A stretch of 40,163 bases of DNA from Streptosporangiales bacterium (GTDB taxonomy: Bacteria; Actinomycetota; Actinomycetes; Streptosporangiales; Streptosporangiaceae), in contig WHSL01000027.1 in assembly GCA_009380095.1 (NCBI GenBank), positions 1 through 40,163 on the forward strand, written 5' to 3'. Shown one piece after another: positions 12,741-20,983 of this stretch (within the stretch, counting starts at the first letter, position 1; each line of letters opens with the position of its first letter). The notes under the pieces are model-generated. The model searched no databases. It was not told the origin of the DNA and saw only the letters and a program-made list of their open reading frames with translations. The position numbers and the translations under genes were made by a program.

Positions 12741-13930
12741 GAGGCCCTCCCGAGCAGCGCGTCGGAGATGATCCGCTGCTGGATCTCCGAGGTGCCTTCG
12801 AAGATCTTGGTCAGCCGCGCGTCCCGCCAGTACCGCTCCACCGCGAAGTCGGTGGTGTAGCCGGCGCCGCCGTGGATCTGCAGGCCCTCGCTGGTGACCC
12901 GCTCGGCCATCTCGCTGGCGTACAGCTTCACCATGGAGGCGGGGGTGGAGCAGGGCACGCCGGCCTCGATGTCGGCGCAGACCTCGTACATCAGTGACCG
13001 GGCGATCTCGATCTCGGTGGCCATGTTGGCGATCTTGAAGCGGATGGCCTGGTTGTGGCCGATCGGGCGGCCGAACTGTTCGCGCTGGTGGCAGTAGGCG
13101 ATGGAGTCCTCCAGCGCGCCCCGGGCCAGCCCGATCGCGCGGGCCGCCGTGTGCACCCGGGCCACGTCCAGGAACGTCATGGCCTGCTGGAAGCCGCGGC
13201 CCTCCTCGCCGGCCAGGGCCTCCCCGGGGACGCGGCAGTCGTCGAAGGACAGCTCCCAGGTCTTCCAGCCGTGGTAGCCGATCTTGCGGACCGGGTTGCC
13301 GTGGACGCCCGGGGGCAGCGTGCCGCGTTCCTTCTCGATGATGAAGGAGCTGATGCCGCGGTGCCGGGCGGCCGGGTCGAGCGGCTCCGTACGGGCGAAG
13401 ACGCGGATGAAGTCGGCTCCGTCGGCGAACGTGCACCACATCTTCTGGCCGTTGATCACCCAGGCGTCGCCGTCCCGGTGTGCGCGGGTGGTCAGCGCGG
13501 CCACGTCGGAGCCGGCGCCCGGCTCGGACAGCGCGAACGCCTCCAGGCAGTCGCCGCGGGCCGAGGCCGGGAGCATCCGGTCCTGGAGGTGCGGGGGGAA
13601 CGAGCCCTCGCCCTTGTTGCCGCGGGCGATGATGCTCGCCACGCTCATCCAGGCACGGGCCAGCTCTTCGGCCACGATCACGTACTCGAAGACGCCGAGG
13701 CCGAGCCCGCCGTACTTCTCCGGGGTCATGATGCCGAAGAAGCCGAGCTCGCCCATCTTGTCGCGGAGGTCCATCGGGATCTCGCCGCCCGTGGAGTCCA
13801 GCTCGTTGGCCACCGGGAGCACCTCGTGCATCGCGAACTCGCGGGCCAGGCCGCGGATGGCCAGGCGGTCCTCGGTGAGGTGCGCGGAGTGGGCGGCGAT
13901 CGCGCTGGGGTCGGTGGTTCGCGGGGTCAC
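12737..13930 (-). CDS. Acyl-CoA dehydrogenase
   Basis: This is an FAD-dependent acyl-CoA dehydrogenase of normal length (397 aa). The flavin and substrate loop ALSEPGAGSD is at residues 133-142, MWCTFADGAD near 164-173, the late REQFGRPIG motif is present, and the catalytic base is probably Glu378 in FEGTSEIQ. It uses an electron-transfer flavoprotein as acceptor; no etf genes lie nearby. The GTG start at 13930 overlaps the upstream MaoC stop. In the operon it would introduce the double bond that a MaoC hydrates. The branched or dicarboxylic specificity, for example methylsuccinyl-CoA-like, is an inference from the neighbours. Confidence 0.93.
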   Translation of the reverse strand: MTPRTTDPSAIAAHSAHLTEDRLAIRGLAREFAMHEVLPVANELDSTGGEIPMDLRDKMGELGFFGIMTPEKYGGLGLGVFEYVIVAEELARAWMSVASIIARGNKGEGSFPPHLQDRMLPASARGDCLEAFALSEPGAGSDVAALTTRAHRDGDAWVINGQKMWCTFADGADFIRVFARTEPLDPAARHRGISSFIIEKERGTLPPGVHGNPVRKIGYHGWKTWELSFDDCRVPGEALAGEEGRGFQQAMTFLDVARVHTAARAIGLARGALEDSIAYCHQREQFGRPIGHNQAIRFKIANMATEIEIARSLMYEVCADIEAGVPCSTPASMVKLYASEMAERVTSEGLQIHGGAGYTTDFAVERYWRDARLTKIFEGTSEIQQRIISDALLGRAS

Positions 13931-14424
13931 GGGCGCTCCTCCGCGTCGCGCTTGCGGATCAGGTTCGTGCGTTCGAAGTCGATGATGAGCTCGGCGCCGG
14001 AGCGGCCTTCGGTGTGCCAGGTGACGATGCCCTGGGTGGGGCGGCTCTTGGACTCGCGGATCGCGGTCACGGTGCTCGCCGCCGTGAGCGTCTCGCCCAC
14101 CGCGACCGGGCGGTGGAAGGTGAGGGCGTTGACGCCGAGGAAGGCGCCGCCGGCCTCGCTGAGGTCCTGCACGCTGAGGCCGAACACGGTGAGGAAGACC
14201 AGCATCGGGTTGACGACCAGGCCTTGGTGGCCTTGCCCTCGGGCGTATTCGGCGTTGAAGTGCGCCGGGTTGTAGCTCAGGGTGAGGGCGCTGAAGGTGA
14301 CCGTGTCGGATTCGGTGAGGGTGCGGCCCCAGTGGTGTTCGAAGCGGTCGCCTACGGTGAAGTCTTCGAATGTGTGGCCTTTGGGCCAGGGGCGGGCTCG
14401 GGCGCGCAGCGTCGATGCGTCCAA
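13927..14424 (-). CDS. MaoC family dehydratase, second copy
   Basis: This is a hot-dog fold hydratase/dehydratase of 165 aa. The active-site region reads LSYNPAHFNAEYARGQG (about residues 49-65) with VVNPML after it; this resembles mesaconyl-CoA hydratase-type MaoC proteins. The frame has no good ATG, but TTG 14424 has GGAGG nine bases upstream and is chosen. It overlaps the acyl-CoA dehydrogenase start. Together with the other MaoC it brackets the dehydrogenase, so two hydration or dehydration steps, or a two-subunit enzyme, are possible. Confidence 0.83.
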   Translation of the reverse strand: MDASTLRARARPWPKGHTFEDFTVGDRFEHHWGRTLTESDTVTFSALTLSYNPAHFNAEYARGQGHQGLVVNPMLVFLTVFGLSVQDLSEAGGAFLGVNALTFHRPVAVGETLTAASTVTAIRESKSRPTQGIVTWHTEGRSGAELIIDFERTNLIRKRDAEERP

Positions 14425-14443
14425 CGGTGCCTTCCTCCAGGGG

Positions 14444-15808
14444 TTAGGGGAGCGGGCTTGCCAGGGTGGTGAGCTCGGTCAGGTCTTCGAGGGTGTCGAG
14501 GGCCAGTACGGCGCTGGACAGCTTCTTGGCGCGTGCTTCGCCGAGGTGGGGTTCGGTCAGCCCGTGGAATTTGGCCAGGAGACCAGGGGTCTGTTCGCCG
14601 GGGTCGTCCACCCAGTTGGGGGTGCCGGTGTCGGCCTCGCCGCGGTAGGTGGCGCCGTTGCTGGTGGTGACGGTGACGGTGCCGTTCCACTGGGTCAGGT
14701 GCTCGTCCGGGACCACGGTCACCCGGTCGCGGAGGGCTGTGAGGCGGGGGTCGGTCACCGTGGCGGTGGTGAAGCGGCTCTCGTCGGCGGTGCCTTCCGC
14801 GAGGGCCAGGGCTGCGGTGAAGCGGAGGCTGAACTTGCCCTCCAGAGCGGTGCGTGGCTCGGGGATGGCGCAGACGTGTAGATGTCCGGCGCTCACCCGC
14901 AGCTCCACCGTGTCGGTCTCCTCGGGGAGCTCCGGGTGCTCCTCTCTGAGCCGGAGGAGCGCGTTGATGGGGGCGTGGGTGAGGTAGCAGGAGGCGTGCA
15001 TCTTGAACAGCGCCTGGGGGACGTACCAGGGTTCGCCGAAGGGGGTGATGAAGGTGTCGTCGAAGCCGTCGGCTTGGGTCTCGGCGAGTCCCTGGTGGGC
15101 GGTGAGCGGTTCGTCGGCGCTGGTCATGCCCTGTTCGGCGAGGAGTGCGGCGAGGACTCCGGCCGAGGCGGCGCGGCCTGCGTGGAGTGGTTTGCACATC
15201 GTGCCGAACATGGCCTTCAACCCGGCGGCCTGGGTGGCGGCGATGCCCAGGGCTCGGGCGGTGGCCTCGGCGTCGAGGCGCATGAGCCGCGCGGCCGCGG
15301 CGGCGGCGCCGAGGGTGCCGACCGTGGCGGTGGTGTGGAAGCCGCGTTCGTAGTGGCCGGTGAGGGCGGCTCCGATGCGGCATTCCACCTCGAATCCGGC
15401 GGCGAAGGCGGTGAGGAGGGCGGCGCCGGAGAGGCCGCGTGACTGTGCCACCGCGAGCGCGGCCGGGAGGACCGGTGCGGAGGGGTGGCCGCCCATGGCG
15501 GCGGCTACGTCGTCGAAGTCGAGGGCGTGGGCGGCGGTGCCGTTGACGAGGGCGGCATCGAGGGCTCGTACGGACTCCGGCCGGCCGAGGATGGCGGCGT
15601 CTCCCGTCCCCGCTGACGTGCCGTCGGCGGCCAGTGCGGTCCGGACGACCTCGGTGACGGGTTCTCGCGACCCCGCGATGGCGACGCCGAGGACGTCGAG
15701 TACGCAGAGCTTCGCGGCGGTACGGACTCCGGGCGGCAGGTCGGCGAGGGAGAGGGCGGCCACCTCCCGGGCGAGCAGCGCGGTGGCGCCCTGGCTGTCG
15801 ATGTGCAC
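14444..15808 (-). CDS. MmgE/PrpD family protein, first copy
   Basis: This protein of about 454 aa belongs to the MmgE/PrpD family, whose known members are 2-methylcitrate dehydratase, cis-aconitate decarboxylase and an iminodisuccinate-epimerase-like enzyme. The typical segments NGTAAHALDFDD (near 90), GFEVECRIG and MCKPLHAGRAASAG (near 205-218) are all present. AGGAG lies 7 bases before GTG 15808, so that start is preferred over the GTG six bases upstream, which overlaps the site. It is the first gene of the CoA-ester operon, 19 bases before the MaoC gene, and faces the IclR gene. It may dehydrate or isomerise a tricarboxylic or hydroxy acid before CoA activation. Confidence 0.88.
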   Translation of the reverse strand: MHIDSQGATALLAREVAALSLADLPPGVRTAAKLCVLDVLGVAIAGSREPVTEVVRTALAADGTSAGTGDAAILGRPESVRALDAALVNGTAAHALDFDDVAAAMGGHPSAPVLPAALAVAQSRGLSGAALLTAFAAGFEVECRIGAALTGHYERGFHTTATVGTLGAAAAAARLMRLDAEATARALGIAATQAAGLKAMFGTMCKPLHAGRAASAGVLAALLAEQGMTSADEPLTAHQGLAETQADGFDDTFITPFGEPWYVPQALFKMHASCYLTHAPINALLRLREEHPELPEETDTVELRVSAGHLHVCAIPEPRTALEGKFSLRFTAALALAEGTADESRFTTATVTDPRLTALRDRVTVVPDEHLTQWNGTVTVTTSNGATYRGEADTGTPNWVDDPGEQTPGLLAKFHGLTEPHLGEARAKKLSSAVLALDTLEDLTELTTLASPLP

Positions 15809-15822
15809 GGGCACTCCTGGAT

Positions 15823-15855
15823 TGTGCCGGATCGTGGAACGCTGTGCCAGAATCG
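15823..15855. promoter_or_regulatory. Direct-repeat operator candidate between iclR and prpD
   Basis: TGTGCCGGATCG (15823-15834) and TGTGCCAGAATCG (15843-15855) are near-identical direct repeats whose starts are exactly 20 bases apart, about two helical turns. They lie in the 101-base gap between the divergent PrpD operon and IclR gene, right in front of the PrpD ribosome site. An IclR dimer-of-dimers could bind here. Confidence 0.5.
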
Positions 15856-15909
15856 ACTCACAACATCCCCCGGCGGCGGAGGGGTGTCAAGTACGGTTCG
15901 GTGGTGTCC

Positions 15910-16653
15910 ATGCAGAGTGTGACGCGCACGCTGAAGGTGATCGAGGAGATCGCGCGGCGGCAGCCGGTGGGGGTCGGCGAGCTCGCCCGTTCCCTCGGTT
16001 TGCCGAAGTCCACGGTGCAGCGGATCCTGGGCACGCTGCACGAGGCCGGGTGGCTGACGCCGGCCGGTGGCGACCTCACCCGGTGGCTGCTGTCCGCACG
16101 GATCGCGGCGATCGGTTACCGCAGCGCGCCGGAGGTGGGGCTGCGGGAGACCGCGCTCGGGCCGATGCGCGAGCTGGGCGACGTGACCGGGGAGACCATC
16201 CACCTCTCGGTTCCGGACGGCGACCGCTGCATGGTGCTCATCGAGCGGGTGGACAGCACCCAGGCGGTCCGTACGTACAACCAGCTCGGCACGACCTCGC
16301 CGTTCCACACCACGTCCACCGGGCGGTCGGTGCTGGCCCACCTGCCCGCGGACGTCGCCGACGCGATCATCGCCCGCGGCCTGGAGCGCTTCACCGACCG
16401 CACCGTCACGGACCCGGACGTACTCCGCGCCGACCTCGCCGCCATCCGCAGCCGCGGCTACGCGATCAACCTCGGCGAGAACCGCACCAACGTCTGCGCC
16501 ATCGGCGCCCCCGTCTTCGGCCCCTCCGGCGCCCCCATAGCCGGCATCTGCATCTCCATGCCCGACCTCCGCTACACGGAACACCGCCTCCCCGAATGGG
16601 GCGAACGAGTCCACAAAACCGCCACCACCATCACGACAACCCTCACCCGCTAA
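15910..16653 (+). CDS. IclR family transcriptional regulator, first copy
   Basis: This is a regulator with an N-terminal winged helix (LARSLGLPKSTVQRIL within about residues 21-36) and a C-terminal IclR effector domain (ETIHLSVPDGDRCMVL, RGYAINLGENRTNVCAIGAPVF). The total is about 247 aa from ATG 15910, normal for the family. GTG codons at 15901 and 15904 and an earlier ATG at 15844 are in frame, but the conserved domain starts at QSVTRTLKVIEEI, so the later start is preferred. It is divergent from the PrpD-MaoC-ACAD-CoA-transferase-lyase operon and is the natural candidate to control it. The effector is likely a pathway acid. Confidence 0.9.
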   Translation: MQSVTRTLKVIEEIARRQPVGVGELARSLGLPKSTVQRILGTLHEAGWLTPAGGDLTRWLLSARIAAIGYRSAPEVGLRETALGPMRELGDVTGETIHLSVPDGDRCMVLIERVDSTQAVRTYNQLGTTSPFHTTSTGRSVLAHLPADVADAIIARGLERFTDRTVTDPDVLRADLAAIRSRGYAINLGENRTNVCAIGAPVFGPSGAPIAGICISMPDLRYTEHRLPEWGERVHKTATTITTTLTR

Positions 16654-16657
16654 CCCC

Positions 16658-16675
16658 ACCCCAATTTGTTGATCA
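16658..16675 (+). repeat. Repeat copy A (ACCCCAATTTGTTGATCA)
   Basis: This AT-rich 18-base sequence in a GC-rich setting lies 5 bases past the IclR stop. It is identical over its last 17 bases to copy C and, inverted, to copy B. Confidence 0.9.
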
Positions 16676-16782
16676 AGGGTCCTGTACGGGCCTGCGGCCG
16701 ATGTGCGGAGGGGTGGTGGAAGCCGTGAATGGGGGGCTTGTGTGATTCGCGGAGGGCGTGGAGCCTCGGCAGGATGGCCCGC

Positions 16783-17748
16783 ATGGGCGACGAACTCATC
16801 GATCTGCAGTGCGGTGTGTTGACGCGGAAGCAGGCGCAGAATCTGGGCATTTCCGACGCCGTCATCCAGGAGAGGATCGCGTACGCGGAATGGCAGCGCC
16901 TCTATTGGGGCGTGTACGCCACATTCCCCGGAAAAGTTCCCCGAATGAGCCGGTTATGGGCGGCGGTCTTACGCGCGGGCCCCGGCGCCGCGCTCAGCCA
17001 CACGACCGCGGCCGAGCTGTACGGGCTGGCCGACGAGACGCCCGGCCCGATCCACATCACGGTCCCGCGTGACCGGCGGGTCGTGCGGGAACGGGACCTG
17101 GTGATCCACGTTTCGGCGTACGCCGAGCCGGCGGTCGACCCCGCCGCCCGGCCCAGTCGTATCAGGGTGGAGCACACGGTTCTCGACCTCGTGGCGCAGG
17201 CGGAGCGGTTGGGCGACGCGCTGGGGTGGGTCACCCGCGCGTGCGGCAACCGGCTCACCACAGCGGAGCGGCTGCGAGCCGCGCTGGGGGAACGTACCCG
17301 GTTGCGATGGCGTCACGAACTGGAGGCCGCGCTCTCGGATGTGGGGGCGGGGGCCCAGTCCGTACTGGAACTGGGTTATCTGCGGCGGTGCGAGCGGGCG
17401 CATGGTCTGCCGCCTGCCCGGCGGCAGGAACGCGTCATCCGCGAGGGGCGGAGCCAGTACCGGGACGTCGAGTACGCGGAGTTCGGCGTGATCGTCGAGC
17501 TCGACGGGGTGATCGTGCACACGGATGAGACGCGACCGAGGGACCGGCGGCGCGACAACCTCAACACCATCGAGGCCGCGGCGACTCTGCGGTACGGCTG
17601 GTCGGACGTCTACGACTCGCCTTGCAAGGTGACGGAGCAGGTGCACAGCGCCCTGGCCAACCGCGGCTGGGCGGGCACCCCGTACGCCTGCGGCGCTCCC
17701 TCCTGCCCCTTCCCCCGATCCCGGCCCTCCCCAGAGCCGCAACCCTAA
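16783..17748 (+). CDS. AbiEi antitoxin-domain / DUF559 nuclease-fold protein
   Basis: This protein of about 321 aa has an N-terminal winged-helix segment (LTRKQAQNLGISDAVIQERI, then WQRLYWGVYA) like the AbiEi type IV antitoxin domain. It has a helical middle and a C-terminal DUF559 domain of the Vsr/PD-(D/E)xK fold. In that domain DVEYAEFGVIVELDG and the following HTD, DRRRDN carry the acidic and basic residues of the predicted nuclease site, which look intact. No AbiEii-type toxin gene is adjacent. ATG 16783 follows AGGA with 8-base spacing; ATG 16774 is also possible. Two TTA leucine codons occur (16954, 16969), rare in such genomes and a possible sign of transfer or bldA-type control. It sits alone between inverted repeats. 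Confidence 0.78.
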   Translation: MGDELIDLQCGVLTRKQAQNLGISDAVIQERIAYAEWQRLYWGVYATFPGKVPRMSRLWAAVLRAGPGAALSHTTAAELYGLADETPGPIHITVPRDRRVVRERDLVIHVSAYAEPAVDPAARPSRIRVEHTVLDLVAQAERLGDALGWVTRACGNRLTTAERLRAALGERTRLRWRHELEAALSDVGAGAQSVLELGYLRRCERAHGLPPARRQERVIREGRSQYRDVEYAEFGVIVELDGVIVHTDETRPRDRRRDNLNTIEAAATLRYGWSDVYDSPCKVTEQVHSALANRGWAGTPYACGAPSCPFPRSRPSPEPQP

Positions 17749-17758
17749 GGACGCCCCA

Positions 17759-17777
17759 TGATCAACAAATTGGGGGG
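17759..17777 (-). repeat. Repeat copy B, inverted
   Basis: It reads TGATCAACAAATTGGGGGG on the plus strand, the reverse complement of copies A and C. It starts 10 bases after the AbiEi/DUF559 stop. Confidence 0.9.
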
Positions 17778-17808
17778 CGGATTTTGCAAGGGCGACCTGC
17801 GGGTTCTC

Positions 17809-19248
17809 CTACAAATTCCTTCCCCCAATTTGTTGATCATGGGGGCGGAGGTGGGTGGTCAGGGGGGTGAGGTTGGCGAGGGTGGGGAGGGTGAAGGCGG
17901 CTTCGGTGAGGATGGTGGCGGTGGTCTCGTCGACGGTGCGGGTGGCGTTGCCGTGGAATTTGGTGGCGAGTTCGTGGGCGGAGAGGGGGTTGCCGGGGCC
18001 GCCCCGGTTGACGTTCACGCGCTCCTCCAGGAGCGTGCCGTCCGTACGGGTCACTCGGAGCACGGCGGGGAACTGGTGCGGGAAGATCTCGTCGCAGCGG
18101 GCGTCCGGCACGCATCGGACCTTCGCCGCCAGTGCGAGCCGTTCCGGATTCTTCGCCGCGGCGTCGGTGAAGTCCTCGTGGAACACGCCGAGCCCGCCCC
18201 CGCCGAGCAGCGCCGCGGCCACCGTGTACGGCCCGCTGAACGCCGCGTGATACCCCGACTCCGGCCGCGCCTTGGCCGCGGCCGGCTCGCCGATGGTGCG
18301 CAGCACCGCCGACGCCGCCCCCAGCTCGATCGACGCGATGTCCGCCGGGTCCAGGCCGCCCTCCCGCAGCCGGCGGGCGGCGTCGATCCCGGCGTGGGTG
18401 AAGTGGTTGCACGGGTATGGCTTGAAGAAGATCCCCGGTAGCTCCCACTCCTCGCCGAGCCCGTCGGTGATCGCCTCCGGCCGCGCCCCGTCCCCGCAGT
18501 ACGCCTGCAGGAACCCGAACCGGCCCTCGAGCACGGTCGGCGGCCCGGTGATGCCGTGCGCGGCGAGCTCCGCGGCGGCCACCCCGGCGTGCGCCGCCCA
18601 GCCGCAGTGCACCCGCTTCACGGTCCCGCCGGTCCGGTTCGCCTCGATGACGCCCGCGCCCATGCTCGCCGCGACGCCCGCCGCCGAGGCGATGCCGTCC
18701 GCGTCGAGGCCGAGCAGCATGCCGGCGGCGATCGCGGCGCCGATCGTGCCGCAGATCGAGGTGGCGTGCAGTCCGCGCTCGAAGAAGATCGAGTTGCCGA
18801 GCGCGGGGTCGTAGCCGGCCATGCCGATCCGTACGGTCGCCTCGATGCCCACGCCCGCCGCGTCCAGCAGCTCCGCGCCGCCGCGCCCGTGGGTCTCCGC
18901 CACCGCCAGCGCCGCGGGGATCACCGAGGAGGAGGGGTGCAGCACCGACGGCAGGTGCGTGTCGTCGAAGTCCAGCGCGTGCGCGAGGGTGCCGTTGACC
19001 AGCGCGGCGGCGGGGGCCGGGAGCCGTACCGCGGAGCCGATGGCGGTGGCCTGGGCCGCCCCGCCCCAGCCCCGCGCGACCGCGCCGACCGCCCGGGCCG
19101 GCTCCTCGGTGGTCGCGGCGAGCGCGTTGCCGGTGAGGTCGAGCACCCGGCGCGCCACGTCCTCGCGCAACGCGGCGGGCAGGCCCTGTTCCCGGATCCG
19201 TACGGCCAGGTCGGCGAGGTGCTGCACCGGCGTACGGTCCCCGCTCAC
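17809..19248 (-). CDS. MmgE/PrpD family protein, second copy
   Basis: This 479-aa MmgE/PrpD family enzyme shows NGTLAHALDFDDTHLPSVLH (near 84-103) and the later TVKRVHCGWAAHAG segment. It shares the fold, but little detail, with the copy at 14444. The GTG start at 19248 overlaps the stop of the cyclase gene, so it is the third gene of the IclR-cyclase-PrpD set. The normal protein should end near TPLTTHLRP; here about ten further residues (HDQQIGGRNL) are read from the repeat copy C, with the stop in the repeat loop. The fold is probably unharmed. It may dehydrate or isomerise a product of the cyclase and hydantoinase steps; the substrate is unknown. Confidence 0.88.
   Translation of the reverse strand: MSGDRTPVQHLADLAVRIREQGLPAALREDVARRVLDLTGNALAATTEEPARAVGAVARGWGGAAQATAIGSAVRLPAPAAALVNGTLAHALDFDDTHLPSVLHPSSSVIPAALAVAETHGRGGAELLDAAGVGIEATVRIGMAGYDPALGNSIFFERGLHATSICGTIGAAIAAGMLLGLDADGIASAAGVAASMGAGVIEANRTGGTVKRVHCGWAAHAGVAAAELAAHGITGPPTVLEGRFGFLQAYCGDGARPEAITDGLGEEWELPGIFFKPYPCNHFTHAGIDAARRLREGGLDPADIASIELGAASAVLRTIGEPAAAKARPESGYHAAFSGPYTVAAALLGGGGLGVFHEDFTDAAAKNPERLALAAKVRCVPDARCDEIFPHQFPAVLRVTRTDGTLLEERVNVNRGGPGNPLSAHELATKFHGNATRTVDETTATILTEAAFTLPTLANLTPLTTHLRPHDQQIGGRNL
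17822..17839 (+). repeat. Repeat copy C, forms hairpin with copy B
   Basis: The core CCCCCAATTTGTTGATCA is continued by TGGGGGC, so that B and C pair almost perfectly over about 24 bases around a 44-base loop. The minus-strand PrpD reading frame passes through C and stops inside the loop (17809-17811). The large hairpin could also act as a bidirectional terminator, although it has no T tract. Confidence 0.88.
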
Positions 19249-20054
19249 GCCGCCACCGCCGCGAGCGGGCGGACGGGGGAGCCGGTGCCGCCGACGATGC
19301 GCAGCGGCGCGAGCACGAACGTGAACACGGTGAGCCCGTCCGACGCGGCCTCTTCGAGGTTCAGGTGCTCGATGATGTGCACGCCGTGCTCGACGAGCAG
19401 CACCCGGTGCACCGGCAGCACGCGGTGCCCGGCGCCGGGGGCGACGCGCTCGTACGCGGTGGTGTCGGCGCCGGTGGCGATCACGCCCCGCTCGGCCAGC
19501 CAGTGCGCGCCGTCCTCGGAGACGCCCGGCACCCCGGTGTCGTGCCCGAGGTAGGCCGCGGCGTCGTCGAAGAGCCGCGCCCAGCCGGTCCGTACGAGCG
19601 CGACGTCGCCCGCACCGATCCGTACGCCGGCGCGCTCCTCGGCGGCCGCCAGGTCGGCGGCCCCGACGCCCTCGGCCGCGGGCAGCGTCGGCACCCCGCG
19701 CACGCCGGCGACGTCGAGCAGGACGCCGCGGGTGAGCATGGCCGGCGTGTGCTCGGCGCCGCCCGTGCTGAACGTCCCGCCGCGCTGCGCCTCATCGGCG
19801 TCCACCCCGCCGTGCAGCAGTCCGTTCTGGCTGACGTGCGCGAGGGCGTCGATGTGCGTGCCGACGTGACCGCCGGTCACGATGATCTCGTTGGCCGCGG
19901 AGCCGCCGTCGGGCCGTACGGCGTCGCCGTGCCGGCGGTTCAGCGTCATCCGGAAACCGGGGTGGTTGGGCGAGCAGGGCATGCCGGTGAACAGGGGCTG
20001 TCCGAGATCGACAAGGCGCACTCCCGCCTGGACGGCTTGGAGCAGTGGGTCCAC
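19245..20054 (-). CDS. Cyclase family protein (kynurenine formamidase-like fold)
   Basis: This 269-aa metal-dependent hydrolase belongs to the cyclase/KynB family; members hydrolyse formamides, cyclic amides or lactone-like esters. The metal motif HVGTHIDALAH is at residues 63-73 with His63, His67, Asp69 and His73. The frame is open far upstream, but GTG 20054 has an AAGGA site with 6-base spacing, and the domain begins right after it. It lies between the IclR regulator (128 bases upstream) and the PrpD gene, which it overlaps. A hydantoinase is encoded by the divergent operon, so successive amide hydrolyses of one compound are plausible. Confidence 0.86.
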   Translation of the reverse strand: MDPLLQAVQAGVRLVDLGQPLFTGMPCSPNHPGFRMTLNRRHGDAVRPDGGSAANEIIVTGGHVGTHIDALAHVSQNGLLHGGVDADEAQRGGTFSTGGAEHTPAMLTRGVLLDVAGVRGVPTLPAAEGVGAADLAAAEERAGVRIGAGDVALVRTGWARLFDDAAAYLGHDTGVPGVSEDGAHWLAERGVIATGADTTAYERVAPGAGHRVLPVHRVLLVEHGVHIIEHLNLEEAASDGLTVFTFVLAPLRIVGGTGSPVRPLAAVAA

Positions 20055-20114
20055 GCGATTCCTTCCGTCGGAGGTCGGTCCCTCGGGGGTCGGGGTCGGT
20101 CCGTCCAGGTTCAA

Positions 20115-20159
20115 TCCGTCCGGGCGCGGTCCGTCCGGGCGCGGTCCGTCCGGGCTGGC
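20115..20159. repeat. 15-base tandem repeat between iclR and cyclase genes
   Basis: Three units of TCCGTCCGGGCGCGG (the last one diverged) lie within a longer degenerate stretch, 20081-20175. This fills the gap between the IclR stop and the cyclase start. Read in the cyclase frame it gives DGPRP-like pentapeptides, but no start codon places it in the protein. Confidence 0.8.
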
Positions 20160-20182
20160 CGGTCCGTCCCGGTCGATCCGTT

Positions 20183-20983
20183 CTAGGGCGGCCCGTCGGG
20201 GGTCGCGCCGGTGGGGAGACCGCCGGACCAGCCGAGCATCCGGGACACACGGTCCGCCGCCGCGATGACGAGCGGCGCGTACCGCTGCCCCGCGGCCTCG
20301 TCGAGCCGCGGGTACGGCCCGCAGACGGAGATGGCGCCGGTGACGGAACCGTCGAAGGAGAAGATGGGCGCCGCCACCGAGGCGGCCCCCGGCTGCCGCT
20401 CGCCGTGCGAGTACGCGTAGCCGCGCGACCGGACCCGGCGCAGCACGTCCCGGAGCCGTTCGGGGTCGATCACGGTGGCGGGGGTGATCGCCGGCAGCTG
20501 CCCGGCCAGGCACTCCTCGCGCTCCTCCTCGGGGAGGAAGGCCAGCATGCACTGGCTGGAACCGCCCGCGTACAGCGGGAACCTGCGCCCCACCTCGACC
20601 GTCATCTTGATCTCGTGCCGGCTCTCGATCTGGTCGAGGTAGACGCGGCCGCCGGGCACCCGCGCGGACAGCGTGATGGTCTCGCCGATGTCGGCGTGCA
20701 GTCGGCGCATGACCGGCATGGCCGCGTCGCGGAGCCGCGAGTCGCGCAGCGCCCGCGCGCCGAGCATCGCGCTGGCCTGGCCCAGCCGGTAGCCGCGGGT
20801 CTCCGTGTCGGCGGCGATCAGCCCGCGGGTGAGCAGCGCGCGCAGGATCCGGTGCACCACGGCCTTGCTCAGACCGAGCCGCCGGGCGATCTCCGAGACG
20901 CCGAGCGTTTCCGAGGCATCGGTGAACGCCAGCAGTACGTCGGCCACCCGGGCCGCCGACTCGGTGCCCGCGCCCTCGCTCAC
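20183..20983 (-). CDS. IclR family transcriptional regulator, second copy
   Basis: This 266-aa IclR protein has its winged helix at about residues 9-60 (VSEIARRLGLSKAVVHRIL) and its effector domain in the rest, including GETITLSARVPGGRVYLDQIES, GGSSQCMLAFLPEE and RGYAYSHGERQPGAASVAAPIF. The GTG start at 20983 is preceded by AGAGGA. It is divergent from the liv-type ABC operon and upstream of the cyclase and PrpD genes. The shared 285-base region contains two GTTCC-N7-GGAAC sites and a 17-base tandem repeat, so it probably controls both operons in response to their substrate. Confidence 0.92.
   Translation of the reverse strand: MSEGAGTESAARVADVLLAFTDASETLGVSEIARRLGLSKAVVHRILRALLTRGLIAADTETRGYRLGQASAMLGARALRDSRLRDAAMPVMRRLHADIGETITLSARVPGGRVYLDQIESRHEIKMTVEVGRRFPLYAGGSSQCMLAFLPEEEREECLAGQLPAITPATVIDPERLRDVLRRVRSRGYAYSHGERQPGAASVAAPIFSFDGSVTGAISVCGPYPRLDEAAGQRYAPLVIAAADRVSRMLGWSGGLPTGATPDGPP

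Follow-up and report, generated by a model that had tools for sequence, protein, structure and literature searches.

A nuclease-like AbiEi/DUF559 gene paired with dispersed palindromes suggests a kind of element unrecognised so far in an actinobacterial family

The pairing of a nuclease-like gene with dispersed palindromes described here suggests a kind of element unrecognised so far, selfish or repeat-spreading. Palindromes stand on both sides of part of the homologues of this gene in a recurrent geometry, acidic residues are conserved in the proteins, and the palindromes are dispersed in three genomes. On balance, we lean towards an explanation in which gene and palindromes form a gene-repeat pair, the protein binding or acting on its cognate palindrome and the palindrome being copied by cutting and repair. 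Dispersed palindromes are otherwise linked with Y1 transposases (RAYTs) or with MITEs derived from IS elements, and a search of the open literature (titles and abstracts, subscription papers lying outside it) found no description of DUF559 or AbiEi genes with dispersed palindromes.

Results

The locus and its palindrome

The window is the whole stretch of 40,163 nt of contig WHSL01000027.1 (Streptosporangiales bacterium) that was analysed, and all coordinates are positions in it (Table 1). A sequence-only reading of this DNA had pointed to three copies of the 17-mer CCCCAATTTGTTGATCA around the gene. These three exact copies were recovered at 16659-16675 (plus strand), 17759-17775 (minus strand) and 17823-17839 (plus strand), and the window held no further match at up to 3 mismatches, against a chance expectation of 0.02. 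The copies at 17759 and 17823 are the two arms of a single 91-bp palindrome (17754-17844), and only the copy at 16659 stands alone, as an unpaired single arm or half-arm (16659-16679). The gene is accordingly bounded by a full palindrome downstream, while its left flank holds a half-arm like at least nine others in the genome. Nor does the unit lie exactly between two stop codons, as had been supposed, since the minus-strand MmgE/PrpD gene runs into the palindrome, the final 11 codons and the TAG stop of this gene being palindrome sequence. The RNA fold of the 101-base stretch around the palindrome reached -66 kcal/mol (z -8.4), and Rfam gave no match to the palindrome at the gathering threshold.

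Table 1. Features around the AbiEi/DUF559 gene in the window
Feature	Position	Strand	Remark
IclR-family regulator gene	15844..16653	+	end 5 bp before left half-arm
Left palindrome half-arm CCCCAATTTGTTGATCAAGGG	16659..16679	+	94 bp upstream of likely start codon
AbiEi-type DNA-binding + DUF559 nuclease-like gene (predicted)	16774..17748	+	start from homologues; ORF opens 16729
91-bp palindrome, ends CATGATC...GATCATG	17754..17844	.	5 bp past AbiEi/DUF559 stop codon
MmgE/PrpD-family gene	17809..19248	-	final 11 codons + stop within palindrome

The surroundings (13927-20983) form a cluster of two MmgE/PrpD genes, two IclR regulators and a MaoC/mesaconyl-CoA hydratase-like gene. The order IclR-gene-PrpD was absent among the matches listed for 199 other family genomes, with two candidate places per genome scored, and neither a target-site duplication nor a pair of empty and occupied sites was identified for the gene.

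The protein

On its own, the window protein scored under the Pfam cut-offs for both AbiEi_1 (21.1 bits, cut-off 22.2) and DUF559 (13.3 bits, cut-off 20.6). The AbiEi-DUF559 identity that the sequence-only reading had given it is carried by the PADLOC AbiEi model, which matched the window protein at 1.2e-23, and by the 32 aligned homologues, of which 25 matched AbiEi_4 and 8 matched DUF559 at E<=0.01 (best DUF559 match 1.3e-4). Positions invariant in this alignment, which includes the window protein, comprise D231, E242-x-D244-G245, H249, D257, R260 and three cysteines. The acidic set among them is presumably that of PD-(D/E)XK/DUF559 nucleases, and residues of this type go together with the DUF559 matches. 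The best profile neighbours in the PDB, all of them weak, were two entries at E 0.02 for the N-terminus, 9hlo (AbiGI) and 6y8q (an abortive phage infection protein), and the endonuclease-like protein 3hrl for the C-terminus (E 0.15); a single-sequence structure prediction was uninformative (pLDDT 36). From these comparisons, the protein is predicted to be an AbiEi-type DNA-binding part joined to a DUF559 nuclease-like domain.

Homologues at E<=1e-10 were present in 43 of 149 other family genomes. The protein search gave no match in plasmids, no relative in viral contigs and two distant phage records (33% and 28%). A search of its own genome gave one close copy and three more distant proteins (29-34% identity). 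For two of these three, no repeat was common to the two flanks, and for the third no usable alignment was obtained; some palindrome was located within 400 bp of two of the three, L146 (score 22, GC-rich) and L147 (score 13).

Palindromes on both sides of homologous genes

In an early sample of 19 relatives' loci, 5 carried repeats on either side of the gene that were longer than in any shuffle. At four of these five, the repeats were direct copies of 47-69 bp with a spacing of 1.07-1.11 kb, palindromic to a varying degree. A panel of 60 homologue loci was then taken, best first, from the family homologue matches listed. When their two 420-bp flanks were compared, similarity at E<=1e-3, partly non-palindromic, was found at 17 of the 60 loci and in the window. 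With the same automatic palindrome score applied to loci and controls, scores of at least 14 within 300 bp upstream were obtained for 18 of 54 loci, window included, versus 5 of 173 control ORFs; within 300 bp downstream, the counts were 10 of 54 versus 7 of 173, and on both sides 5 of 54 versus none of 173.

A strict both-sided test, defined as a palindrome on one side and a similar copy on the other, was passed by 11 of 53 loci; of 396 control ORFs, drawn from 12 of the genomes, none passed (Fisher 2e-11), flanks being cut from alignment ends for homologues and from ORF ends for controls. The remaining 42 loci failed, and the window is one of them, with no more than a half-arm as its left copy. 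A looser all-against-all comparison found 14 of 60 relatives' loci in ten genera to be both-sided (L289, L291, L293, L300, L301, L309, L313, L315, L316, L320, L331, L335, L341 and L348), and two far homologues in genome G002, with 27-29% identity, had the same arrangement. The REP/RAYT-like pairing of palindromes with a DUF559-type protein that the sequence-only reading had envisaged is supported by these loci.

The both-sided palindromes measured 37-64 bp and kept a recurrent geometry at 13 of the 14 loci, L291 being without gene coordinates. The upstream palindrome ended 8-127 bp ahead of the start, distances that are approximate because starts were inferred; the downstream one began -26 to +51 bp from the stop, nine of them within 7 bp, and the two repeats were spaced 1046-1167 bp apart. 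With 94 bp upstream, +5 bp at the stop and a spacing of 1095 bp, the window fits this pattern.

These results bear on the idea that the upstream palindrome is the autoregulatory operator of an AbiEi-type repressor, the downstream and dispersed copies being further binding sites or chance, without mobility. The excess of upstream over downstream palindromes (18 versus 10 of 54 loci) speaks for an operator, as does the binding of AbiEi and Rv2827c to paired inverted repeats of similar size upstream of their own genes, according to the accessible part of PMC7319586. We nevertheless consider this explanation unlikely: it does not account for the second copy at the stop codon, and the window genome holds dozens of copies at gene 3' ends and none, out of 58, between divergent genes.

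Specificity and dispersal of the palindromes in relatives

Among homologues, the palindromes mostly differed from gene to gene. The two homologues of genome G062 had two different palindromes, with 3 and 2 further copies in 277 kb, and in G002 the palindrome families of two homologues occupied 8 and 9 further places in 405 kb and that of a third homologue one; at E<=1e-3, nothing similar to the G002 families occurred in the loci examined from other genomes. One further place each was found for the palindromes of L315 (G152) and L293 (G050), and none elsewhere in 205 kb for those of L313 and L314 (G152). Two genes in G050 have one palindrome type in common, and L289 and L291, two genes in one genome, have a common type. 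Dispersal was sampled in few genomes, the samples from the other genomes being small. At L426, L427, L431 and L433 of G002, the palindrome family of the L438 homologue was seen in short tandem arrays of arms, somewhat BIME-like.

Between genera, palindrome similarity weakly followed protein similarity (rho 0.18, with 6 of 500 permutations equally high) in a co-variation test on 34 loci, for which a palindrome of score 12 with a GC content below 72% was required. The pattern CATGATC-N30-58-GATCATG, which represents one subtype and has a background of a few matches per genome, reached a density of at least 2 per Mb in 15 of the 32 genomes whose homologue was strong (E<=1e-40), in 0 of 11 where it was weak and in 2 of 106 that had none (Mann-Whitney 3e-9, uncorrected for phylogeny; the window genome stood outside these classes). 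The two exceptions, with many CATGATC palindromes and no detected homologue, were G092 and G140, two species in genus g23, where a far homologue may have been overlooked.

Dispersed copies in the genome of the window

A covariance model built on 12 copies, which match it by construction, found 51 distinct palindrome sites at E<=1e-3 in the 6.09-Mb draft genome after merging matches on both strands; two adjacent sites on contig C403 have 10 bp in common. The genome further holds seven short hairpins (E 0.01-0.5) and at least nine half-arms that stand alone. The family has a conserved core of about 66 bp; subfamilies are visible in it, and some copies lack an arm or the tip. Among its members the window copy is unusual, because dispersed copies with intact outer arms mostly end in CAAGATC; the CATGATC-type pattern had only 4 matches in this genome, 0.7 per Mb. 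With these 51 sites, a cassette private to the gene is ruled out in the window genome, and the specificity of the repeat for the gene, assumed in the sequence-only reading, did not hold: Pfam (E<=1e-5) assigned the 30 scanned proteins neighbouring copies to UvrD, adenosine deaminase, gamma-glutamyltransferase and pantothenate kinase, among others, two having no match, and there was neither a DUF559 protein nor a transposase among them.

Outside this genome, the model at E<=1e-3 matched nothing in 149 other family genomes nor in 296 others of the order, under strict filters that weak copies could escape. The exact core pattern was missing from viral contigs and from the GTDB contig collection, from which own-genome records were possibly left out, and the element was not found in plasmids or phages. 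Evidence for RNA covariation, on an alignment of 44 of 46 copies with the two weakest omitted, was mixed and weak: the covariation score was equalled in 87 of 500 shuffles, the further pair types in 2 of 500, and RNAalifold predicted no pairs. A second string common to the element surroundings, GGTTGACCTGGGGTT, was noted at L101, L107, L127 and L138 (contigs C403, C404, C254 and C233, respectively).

Genomic placement

Placement was scored with a codon-usage gene caller for 58 copies. Convergent gaps held 24 of them and tandem gaps 28, five were at contig edges, one was within a called gene and none was in a divergent gap; element-free gene pairs of the same stretches were 29 convergent, 143 tandem and 49 divergent. 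A facing stop codon lay within 10 bp of 52 of the 58 copies, versus 31% under uniform placement. The median convergent gap was 89 bp where an element was present (n=24) and 17 bp where there was none (n=29), a difference that insertions would produce.

At the convergent bpa/HAD pair, the element fills an 88-bp spacer. This arrangement was kept in 17 of 80 relatives; in the other 63, the stretch contained no HAD homologue. The element was absent from all 17 spacers, of which three measured -4 to 18 bp and the rest, unrelated in sequence, 37 to 147 bp. We count the long convergent gaps and the bpa/HAD site as support for the palindrome having been gained in the lineage of the window. Two sites are noted for their gene order. 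A DUF6350 gene (L093, G000:C22:12807-14416), unrelated to the AbiEi/DUF559 gene, has a short hairpin on one side and a full element on the other, which shows that other genes can be flanked too and counts against the pairing. At L090 (G000:C161:4600-9600), the element lies between convergent aminotransferase and adenosine deaminase genes, which were co-oriented in 17 of the 17 relatives' loci where both were found (29 loci examined); this would be a lineage-specific inversion with the palindrome at the junction.

Taken alone, the copies in this genome look like a REP/MITE-like or terminator-like family. The sequence-only reading had named the repeat's occurrence at many gene ends unrelated to DUF559 genes as evidence against a cassette, and since the copies stand mostly at facing stops beside unrelated neighbours, this is what the own genome presents, while the relatives' loci reverse the picture. 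Bidirectional transcription terminators of the lineage, one of which the gene merely adjoins, would explain the nearness to facing stop codons and the strong hairpin (-66 kcal/mol), and many of the relatives' bpa/HAD spacers of at least 37 bp hold, by eye, other GC-rich inverted repeats. A shared core of about 66 bp is nevertheless not expected among unrelated terminators, and the pairs on both sides of homologues in ten other genera are left unexplained, which makes the terminator explanation quite improbable. Lower still stand the chances that an unrelated transposase moves the palindromes, as MITEs or REPs, with DUF559 genes as frequent insertion targets or passengers: subfamilies and truncated copies do resemble mobile repeats, but the own genome lacks a match to the Y1 transposase, the sole transposase family searched, none of the 396 control ORFs was flanked, and the two genes of G062 have two different palindrome families, each dispersed (the two G050 genes having one type).

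Discussion

If gene and palindromes form a gene-repeat pair, the AbiEi-like N-terminal part would bind the cognate palindrome, with its two arms in inverted order, and the C-terminal DUF559 (PD-(D/E)XK-like) domain would act on DNA at the palindrome. Cutting and repair would lead to the palindrome being copied, the copies would survive mostly at gene 3' ends, and the gene itself would stand between two palindromes, the left one of the window having been worn down to a half-arm. Binding, copying and mobility of the palindrome through the protein are what the loci most likely reflect, and the protein probably cuts it. Autoregulatory operator and terminator roles may be part of the same gene-repeat system.

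More tentatively, and with chances that we put a little short of even, these loci could represent a new element class, found in at least 11 genera of one actinobacterial family, in which a fusion of an AbiEi-type operator-binding part and a PD-(D/E)XK nuclease spreads its own operator-like palindrome, different proteins going with different palindrome families, as a transposase-free counterpart of REP/RAYT. If true, this would assign a function to a protein family that has none so far, account for the palindrome families that single lineages have at their gene ends, and provide protein-DNA pairs whose specificity is directly testable in vitro.

Among known systems, REP/BIME repeats with their RAYT genes (REPtrons) are similar in having dispersed intergenic palindromes, a single flanked gene and possibly several gene-repeat pairs per genome. 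Dispersed palindromes whose family also flanks the gene were found in the window (one full copy and a half-arm), in G062 and G002, and at the loci passing the strict test. The protein is different, being AbiEi/DUF559-like here, whereas a RAYT is a Y1 HUH transposase. The Y1 transposase family (PF01797) had 0 matches in the window genome, a 97% complete draft, in a search whose control was positive in 5 of 14 known genomes, and a RAYT was rejected on this result. The palindromes are also longer, 37-92 bp against the 20-40 bp of REPs, and REPs bear a GTAG or CGTC tag at one end, according to the accessible part of PMC3733652; by eye, no such tag is present in the family consensus. Membership in REP/RAYT fails because both the Y1 match and the tag are lacking.

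MITEs and stem-loop families (ERIC, Correia and others; this literature also includes PMC2267715, of which a part was accessible) are likewise short, palindromic, intergenic and lineage-specific, with decaying or truncated copies. In the present family the inverted repeat is clear, no target-site duplication was seen by eye in the flanks, and the search for IS genes covered PF01797. The movement of MITEs is attributed to transposases that recognise the MITE ends (accessible parts of PMC3733652 and PMC2229807); the protein associated here belongs to another class.

In the type IV toxin-antitoxin system AbiE, as far as the accessible part of PMC7319586 describes it, an AbiEi antitoxin recognises, upstream of its own gene, a pair of 23-bp inverted repeats with 3 bp between them, the sites of Rv2827c have 13 bp within pairs, and neither protein bound the other's sites. 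The present system differs in its fused nuclease-like C-terminal domain, in repeats that are also downstream and dispersed, and, in the window, in the absence of an adjoining AbiEii (DUF1814) toxin gene, the neighbours being the IclR and MmgE/PrpD genes. It resembles AbiE in its AbiEi-like N-terminal part and in paired inverted repeats upstream of the gene, which match those described in that part of PMC7319586 in size and place.
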